Source: a virus. From it: DNA of 21,117 nucleotides. The stretch covers positions 1-21,117 of the IMG/VR virus record IMGVR_UViG_3300047094_002080; one strand, given 5' to 3'. Positions 5,254 through 6,050 of the stretch are shown one piece after another (position 1 is the stretch's first letter; each line of letters opens with the position of its first letter). The position numbers and the translations under genes were made by a program. Under the pieces are notes generated by a model that did no database searches, was not told the DNA's origin, and saw nothing but the letters and a program-made list of their open reading frames with translations.

Positions 5254-5832
5254 ATGAAAACCATAAAAGTAAAATGGACGGGCATTCGCCCATTAGTAAT
5301 GCACAACGGCCTCATGGCGGATCCTACAAATCCGCTGGTGCGCCGTATCAAGGAGATAACCAGCAAGGGCAGCAAAAAATTGACGGATGCAGATTACGAG
5401 GAACGCGACAGGCTGGAGTGGGATGCAGGTCTTTATTGGGATACGCAGGACGGGCTAATCATGCCCTCGGACAATATCGAGCGGTGCATTCAACTCGGCG
5501 CTCAAAAGTCTCGTATAGGCAAGGATGTGCAAGCGGCGGTGTTTTGCGCAACTCCGCATGCGGTTATCAACCACGCTGGTCCAAAGGATAAAGACAAACT
5601 CTATGCGGATCCGCGCTACACCCTGCGAAAAGGCGTGGCAGTGCAAAAGAGCCGCATCATTCGCATCCGCCCGATGATTCCGACTGAGTGGTCTATGACA
5701 TTCGACATCGAGTTCGACGAAGGAATCGTAAACCCGAAAAACCTTTTTAAAGCCATGGCAGATGCAGGTTCCCTTGTCGGTATCGGTGATTGGCGGCCAA
5801 AATTTGGAAGGTTTTTAGTCGAAGAGATTTAA
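5254..5832 (+). CDS. Conserved phage protein with RAMP/Cas7-like features
   Basis: A 192-residue protein. The N terminus, KTIKVKWTGIRPLVMHN (2-18), reads as a first strand plus turn. LIMPSDNIERCIQLGAQK (68-85) resembles the helix that follows in RAMP folds. The C terminus ends with strand MTFDIEFDEG, a helix NLFKAMADAG, and the glycine-rich loop GSLVGIGDWRPKFGRF (172-187). I recall phage proteins with a C-terminal GIGRFRP...GRF signature of this kind, and the order of elements recalls RAMP/Cas7 RNA-binding proteins. That comparison is an inference from pattern, without a search. Its stop overlaps the start of an ORF running through the GGCNN array (TAATG), so protein and array are on one transcript. 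No Shine-Dalgarno sequence is obvious. Other possibility: an unrelated replication accessory. Confidence 0.55.
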   Translation: MKTIKVKWTGIRPLVMHNGLMADPTNPLVRRIKEITSKGSKKLTDADYEERDRLEWDAGLYWDTQDGLIMPSDNIERCIQLGAQKSRIGKDVQAAVFCATPHAVINHAGPKDKDKLYADPRYTLRKGVAVQKSRIIRIRPMIPTEWSMTFDIEFDEGIVNPKNLFKAMADAGSLVGIGDWRPKFGRFLVEEI

Positions 5833-6050
5833 TGGGCGAATTTCCCATAGTTCGGCTTGGTTTGGCGATGCGAGGTCTGGCATGGCAAGGCATGGCATGG
5901 CCCGGCAAGGCCAGGCATGGCGAGGCTACACACACTGCATCTTACGGGGTGCAGCAGTGTGGCGAGGCTCGGCGGGGCATGGCCTGGCACGGCAAGGCTG
6001 GGCGAGGCAAACACACAGCATCCCCACGGGGTGCTGAAGTTTGCTCATAA
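5832..6050 (+). CDS. ORF across GGCNN arrays, doubtful coding
   Basis: A 72-codon frame starting by TAATG overlap with the preceding gene and running through both pentamer arrays. Its peptide (for example GLAWQGMAWPGKARHGEA) is low in complexity because a five-base repeat read in triplets cycles every fifteen bases. GGCNN repeats almost never create stop codons in any plus-strand frame, so openness is not evidence of coding. In its favour are the coupled start and an end 19 bases before the next gene. Against it, the hairpins and the GGC phase, rather than amino acids, appear conserved: the two arrays are shifted by two bases relative to each other, so they are read in different frames. Translation through the array may occur without a useful product. 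Confidence 0.25.
   Translation: MGEFPIVRLGLAMRGLAWQGMAWPGKARHGEATHTASYGVQQCGEARRGMAWHGKAGRGKHTASPRGAEVCS
5854..5928 (+). repeat. GGCNN pentamer array 1
   Basis: Fifteen five-base units in perfect register. The last ten (5879-5928) all match GGCNN exactly; the first five are degenerate (GGCTT, GGTTT, GGCGA, TGCGA, GGTCT). The two N positions vary freely (AT, AA, AT, AT, CC, AA, CA, AT, GA, TA) while GGC is kept. This is unlike simple slippage repeats, where whole units stay identical, and points to selection on GGC at five-base spacing. Directly followed by an ACACAC-type tract and a GCATC...GGGGTGC hairpin. Confidence 0.9.
5932..5960 (+). other. Hairpin after array 1
   Basis: ACACTGC (5932-5938) is the exact reverse complement of GCAGTGT (5954-5960). 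The inner arms GCATC (5937-5941) and GGTGC (5948-5952) pair with one G-T wobble; using both sets requires a small rearrangement. The inner part, GCATCTTACGGGGTGC, is repeated almost unchanged after array 2. There is no T tract, so it is not a typical terminator. Confidence 0.7.
5961..6010 (+). repeat. GGCNN pentamer array 2
   Basis: Exactly ten consecutive GGCNN units with no deviation in GGC (NN values: GA, TC, GG, AT, CT, AC, AA, TG, GA, AA). With its trailing hairpin motif it spans 74 nt (5961-6034), the same length as the matching module of array 1 (5879-5952). The two modules are separated by eight bases. Equal length and composition with diverged NN positions indicate an old duplication held by constraint. 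Confidence 0.95.
6018..6034 (+). other. Hairpin after array 2
   Basis: GCATCCCCACGGGGTGC folds as a seven-pair stem (GCATCCC with GGGGTGC, one wobble) closed by a three-base loop. It is preceded by ACACACA, just as the array 1 hairpin is preceded by an ACACAC tract. It lies 23 bases before the Shine-Dalgarno sequence of the next gene. No T run follows, so readthrough into the next gene is expected. Confidence 0.75.

Follow-up and report, generated by a model that had tools for sequence, protein, structure and literature searches.

The window analyzed here, a stretch of 21,117 nucleotides of DNA from an uncultivated tailed phage (IMG/VR record IMGVR_UViG_3300047094_002080, positions 1 to 21,117), contains on its plus strand a gene for a Cas7-like protein followed by two arrays of period 5, each with a structured tail. 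This locus belongs to the already described VIPR (Viral Interference Programmable Repeat; preprint of 2026, PMC13142463) and is no new kind of system. VIPR consists of a RAMP found mostly in phages and of guide RNAs made of GGY/NN repeats (9–16 per guide RNA gene) and a structured tail, in which the information is contained in the NN letters and DNA is recognized with one base skipped (PMC13142463). Assignment of the window locus draws on four features that were tested, namely, homology to Vipr, the GGY/NN guides, the structured tail and a one-skip match. We consider it very probable that this is a VIPR system in which the protein subunits sit on the GGY triplets, the NN letters serve as the guide and the complex represses a target in sibling phages. 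The present work adds a probable natural target, a sibling locus where the system is missing (empty site) and, for this VIPR clade, a tail structure.

The RAMP protein is a homologue of SUSP1 Vipr

The open reading frame at 5254..5832 (plus strand), the vipr gene, encodes a protein of 192 amino acids that is a RAMP and a homologue of SUSP1 Vipr. Its AlphaFold2 model, built from 72 sequences (pLDDT 96.8, pTM 0.90), finds its best PDB fold matches in Csm3, Cmr4 and Cas7-11, which are Cas7-type RAMPs (Foldseek E ~ 1e-5), with a VIA Z of ~ 11 against Csm3 and Cmr4, bearing out the RAMP/Cas7 fold proposed in a first-pass annotation of this DNA. The single solved chain that was matched in sequence is 36pp_D, “SUSP1 Vipr protein” (phmmer E 1e-31; 4e-44 with a profile of the family), and it was this name that led to the VIPR preprint (PMC13142463). 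All 72 aligned relatives of the protein correspond to phrog_4652, a family with no function label; searches of Pfam and NCBIfam yielded no family model for the protein, and a weak Pfam match to one family member was disregarded. The glycine-rich C-terminal segment GIGDWRPKFGRF contains residues that are near-invariant in the aligned family and would fit the glycine-rich loop of RAMPs. Vipr homologues with 31–40% identity were also detected on Bradyrhizobium and Azospirillum plasmids (NZ_CP096257.1, NZ_CP054621.1, NZ_CP022367.1, CP126019.1, NZ_CP054617.1 and NZ_CP126014.1).

GGY/NN arrays accompany the protein family

Two period-5 arrays are located downstream of vipr on the plus strand. The first, the guide of vrRNA 1 (5854..5926), is a GGY array with 14 NN dinucleotides (TT TT GA GA CT AT AA AT AT CC AA CA AT GA), and the second, the guide of vrRNA 2 (5961..6008), is a GGC array with nine (GA TC GG AT CT AC AA TG GA). 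The constant triplet is GGC, at times GGT and, once, TGC, and the two letters in between vary freely. The five-base GGCNN array recognized in the first-pass annotation is real and strand-specific, but there are two arrays rather than one, and, although the period of 5 stands, the triplet is GGY and the first unit starts earlier, at 5854, with GGT and one TGC included. Exact six-unit GGYNN matches number 11 on the plus strand of the window and 0 on the minus strand; 100 dinucleotide shuffles of the window produced none, and the reversed-pattern control on the window gave 0 matches as well. No match to the window was found in Rfam.

A protein-blind scan of IMG/VR for runs of six GGCNN units yielded at least 120 stretches. 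The family of the 192-residue protein is present in 82 of the 121 array records formed by the window and the matches listed, so the co-occurrence of protein family and GGCNN arrays expected from the earlier reading is found in other phages. Among the matches listed, arrays with at least six GGC units in family-carrying loci are on the same strand as the gene in 224 cases and on the opposite strand in 3; likewise among the matches listed, within 1.5 kb of the gene, 161 lie downstream and 53 upstream, and the arrays occupy intergenic stretches on both sides of vipr. They also occur in contigs with 39–47% G+C, and in the reference phages with a homologue (wV8, Trine and LittleE), which are known members of the VIPR family, GGY arrays adjoin the homologue gene. 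The other 39 of the 121 array records listed, for example, L013, L043, L107 and L131, contain no recognized Vipr in the DNA examined; possible reasons are short flanking DNA, divergence of the protein and guide RNAs that are orphans.

In the window, the guides are located between vipr and a gene for a 156-residue protein, and the same location is occupied by four guides in the relative L010 and by three in the relative L011. In a third relative, L009, the guides are 3' of the 156-residue gene rather than directly after vipr. The stop codon of the window vipr, TAA (5830–5832), does overlap an ATG (TAATG), as pointed out previously, but this overlap is no evidence for a single transcript, and the tie between gene and array is not due to it because the L009 guides sit after the next gene.

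Covariation in the tail hairpins

A hairpin, absent from the first-pass annotation, follows each array. The vrRNA 1 tail hairpin is at 5926..5962 (plus strand; MFE z -3.6), and its final GG doubles as the start of guide 2; the vrRNA 2 tail hairpin is at 6007..6044 (plus strand; MFE z -5.3). In an alignment of 17 tails of the window’s clade (the window, L009, L010, L011, L041 and L070), the common fold has an outer stem of six pairs, an internal loop of the form ACA/(A or C)A and an inner stem whose tip varies. Across these 17 tails, 98.8% of the cells are paired, changes on both sides occur at 7 of the 15 pairs, and the covariation score is 0.399, compared to 0.175 for shuffled tails and at most ~ 0.10 with the partner slid. 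The tail structure is thus supported by covariation.

A different kind of tail, resembling a tRNA minihelix with an acceptor-like stem and a T-arm with the loop TTCGANT, is suggested by the fold after some GGCNN guides, at L017:3780, L040 (reverse-strand coordinates 4422 and 4549), L135:6686 (Gordonia phage Trine) and L137:5743, 5868 and 7323 (Mycobacterium phage LittleE). ARAGORN called no tRNA in these tails. From their shape, tRNA enzymes may take part in processing some vrRNAs; tRNA-like tails do not figure in the main text of the preprint (PMC13142463).

A probable natural target of vrRNA 1 in sibling phages

The NN guides from all loci (187) were scanned against fetched phage DNA totaling 1.16 Mb, with the arrays masked and with skips of 0–3. 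Among the 187 guides, the one-skip result furthest above its own shuffles was that of the window’s vrRNA 1, which matches L011:5273–5314 at 24 of 28 letters. This site reads TCA TTT GAA GAG TTG ATT AAC AGC ATC CCC AAA CAA GTC GAC in codons (SFEELINSIPKQVD); the match is in frame, and the skips fall on the third codon (wobble) position throughout, a placement also reported for VIPR targets (PMC13142463).

We fetched 15 loci with the target gene, one of which (L146) is the contig of L011, and in 14 of these, the one-skip match of vrRNA 1 amounts to 24 or 25 of 28; the sibling sites are homologous and therefore count once, as a single conserved site, rather than as fourteen independent cases. Against the window’s own copy, and against that of the close relative L140, vrRNA 1 matches 22 of 28 letters. 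The own counterpart of the target site lies at 9551..9592 (plus strand), within the gene at 8936–9724 (plus strand), the window’s allele of the target. The target gene is upstream of the large terminase and has a weak likeness to the small terminase subunit (E 0.25). When the order of the NN pairs was reshuffled in 4000 trials against 430 kb of sibling DNA, the maximum was 23, and vrRNA 1 itself reached 18–20 in sibling DNA with skips of 0, 2 or 3. Apparently, vrRNA 1 targets siblings that mostly lack VIPR, at a small-terminase-like gene of their late region, and this gene is its probable natural target.

Neither vipr nor arrays were found in the available sequence of the target-bearing siblings, several of which are fragments, except in the contig of L011. 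No allele perfectly matching guide 1 was present among the sampled siblings, and exact searches of IMG/VR (10-NN and two relaxed patterns) came back empty. For vrRNA 2, no target was detected by exact IMG/VR search or in sibling DNA; an exact IMG/VR search with one L010 guide gave no match, and none of the L009, L010 and L011 guides had a significant target in the siblings. The pooled 187 guides showed no one-skip excess in the 1.16 Mb, a set that was not chosen to contain targets. Two further matches were rejected: the single GTDB match for vrRNA 1, in Euzebyella marina, extends to 22 of 28 only, with no phage context seen, and a match of an L116 guide is of low complexity. The chance expectation for the GTDB scan is, by our own estimate, about half a match.

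Alternative explanations

The arrays might be taken for an ordinary G+C-rich simple repeat or a coding repeat, given that an 86-residue frame passes through the array. However, the number of six-unit matches expected by chance is zero, the strand bias among the matches listed is 224 to 3, the tails covary, and contigs with 39–47% G+C have arrays too, which leaves this explanation hardly credible. A regulatory site of the TRAP type, where a protein would bind GGC triplets with two-base spacers and control the neighbor genes while the NN letters would be uninformative, was also considered. The binding sites of TRAP have a period of a triplet plus two and about ten units, as do the arrays in the window, and the arrays are intergenic, both upstream and downstream of the gene. 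This analogy was dropped after the protein fold became known. It is very unlikely given the Cas7 fold and Vipr homology of the protein, the NN order of guide 1, which matches the sibling gene far above reshuffled orders, and the nature of the published relative, a DNA-targeting RNP (PMC13142463).

It could also be that the locus is a genuine VIPR system, but the match of guide 1 is a coincidence, the real target being unrelated to the siblings. The best match is indeed imperfect, at 25 of 28, guide 2 lacks a match, and the phage’s own genome also reaches 22 of 28. Nevertheless, none of the 4000 reshuffles exceeded 23, only the one-skip rule works among skips of 0–3, the coding frame and the wobble phase both fit, and the match first surfaced in an unbiased scan of 187 guides. 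We consider such a coincidence unlikely and favor a VIPR system with a guide directed at sibling phages.

A cassette present or absent among siblings

Alignments of sibling contigs delineate a VIPR cassette (5236..6542, plus strand) that is present or absent among sibling phages: these contigs align to the window as far as 5235, the alignment resumes at 6543 or later, and nothing aligns within 5236–6542. In L191, both flanking genes are joined directly, forming an empty site from which the cassette is cleanly absent, and in L189, L199 and L205, a different stretch of ~ 0.2 kb is found in its place. This replacement stretch (L199:4759–4964 and also in L189 and L205) contains another small reading frame.

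All homologues of the 156-residue gene (6070..6540, plus strand) among the loci searched are in contigs that also encode a close Vipr relative (L009, L010, L011 and L032), and the gene is, for this reason, a candidate vap (VIPR accessory) gene. Searches of PHROG, Pfam and a phage collection detected no relative of its product, the structure model of which is poor (pLDDT 53), and a comparison with gp94 of wV8 showed the two to be unrelated.

In the sibling L011, the flanks are the same as in the window, with >90% of the flanking DNA shared, and the 156-residue gene is 78% identical, but Vipr is only 38% identical and the guides differ. Homology with L011 is lost in the window at 5291, within the first vipr codons, and regained at 5884, in the array. 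This combination of shared flanks and 156-residue gene with divergent Vipr and guides suggests that vipr and its guides were swapped as a block by recombination.

The cassette is embedded in a recombination module (window 1955–4165 and 6543–6977) that includes a Sak4-like annealing protein, a PD-(D/E)XK exonuclease and a Holliday-junction resolvase. The previously noted absence of CRISPR, cas1 and cas2 nearby holds: the window contains no CRISPR-like repeat family, and PADLOC matched no cas or other defense model among nine neighboring proteins. The locus is no CRISPR system.

Proposed mechanism and implications

By analogy with the published RNP (PMC13142463), Vipr subunits would coat the vrRNA, held by the GGY triplets, with the NN dinucleotides as the guide and the 3' hairpin as the tail. 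The complex would then read double-stranded DNA, pairing the NN letters with one strand with a one-base skip, and the bound DNA would be repressed through a block of transcription (PMC13142463). We infer RNP formation, DNA binding and repression by the window’s Vipr from that work. The suggestion that each subunit clamps one GGC would agree with the published VIPR model, and the earlier reading, in which a RAMP forms a filament along an RNA array of period 5, was essentially right. It did not include the information content of the NN letters and the recognition of DNA by the complex (PMC13142463).

vrRNA 1 would direct the complex to the packaging region of siblings, the phage’s own copy having two to three more mismatches, and the likely purpose is the exclusion of co-infecting, closely related sibling phages. 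In the fullest form of this scenario, which we hold with about even confidence, a VIPR clade whose tail fold and accessory protein are its own acts as a swap-in cassette that silences the packaging region of siblings without the cassette and leaves the carrier’s own allele, which has diverged, untouched, resulting in sibling exclusion by non-contiguous RNA guides.

The route to VIPR taken here was independent and used sequence only, it extends support for the one-skip code to phages that the preprint does not name, and the array pattern alone retrieves at least 100 such loci. With a concrete, probable natural target in siblings that are close but without VIPR, and with a clean empty site, self/non-self discrimination by a few mismatches becomes directly testable. 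A tail model backed by covariation is now available for the window’s clade.

Comparison with known systems

The sites of TRAP, (G/U)AG-NN, resemble the window arrays in combining a triplet with a short spacer in ~ ten repeats in RNA, but the protein fold and the purpose are different, and the window spacers appear to carry sequence information. With the Cas7 proteins of class 1 CRISPR-Cas (Csm3 and Cmr4), the window protein shares the fold and, presumably, the formation of a filament on a guide RNA, whereas the window has no CRISPR array or cas genes, a period of 5 rather than 6 and a single small RAMP.

The closest counterpart is the VIPR of Escherichia phage SUSP1 (PMC13142463; PDB 36pp). 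It, too, is hosted by a phage and combines a RAMP that is homologous to the window protein and similar in size with GGY/NN guides, a structured 3' tail and an adjoining accessory gene, for which the window has a candidate; its natural target belongs to a competing element and is read with one base skipped at the wobble positions, as is probably the case in the window. The differences concern the tail, which in the window is a hairpin of three helices whose internal loop is ACA/(A or C)A, in contrast to the pseudoknot reported for the SUSP1 clade, the location of the window guides between vipr and the candidate accessory gene, and this gene itself, which is unrelated to the neighbor of the Vipr homologue in Felixounavirus wV8. 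Finally, the apparent target of the window system is a sibling phage, whereas that of the SUSP1 VIPR is a satellite.
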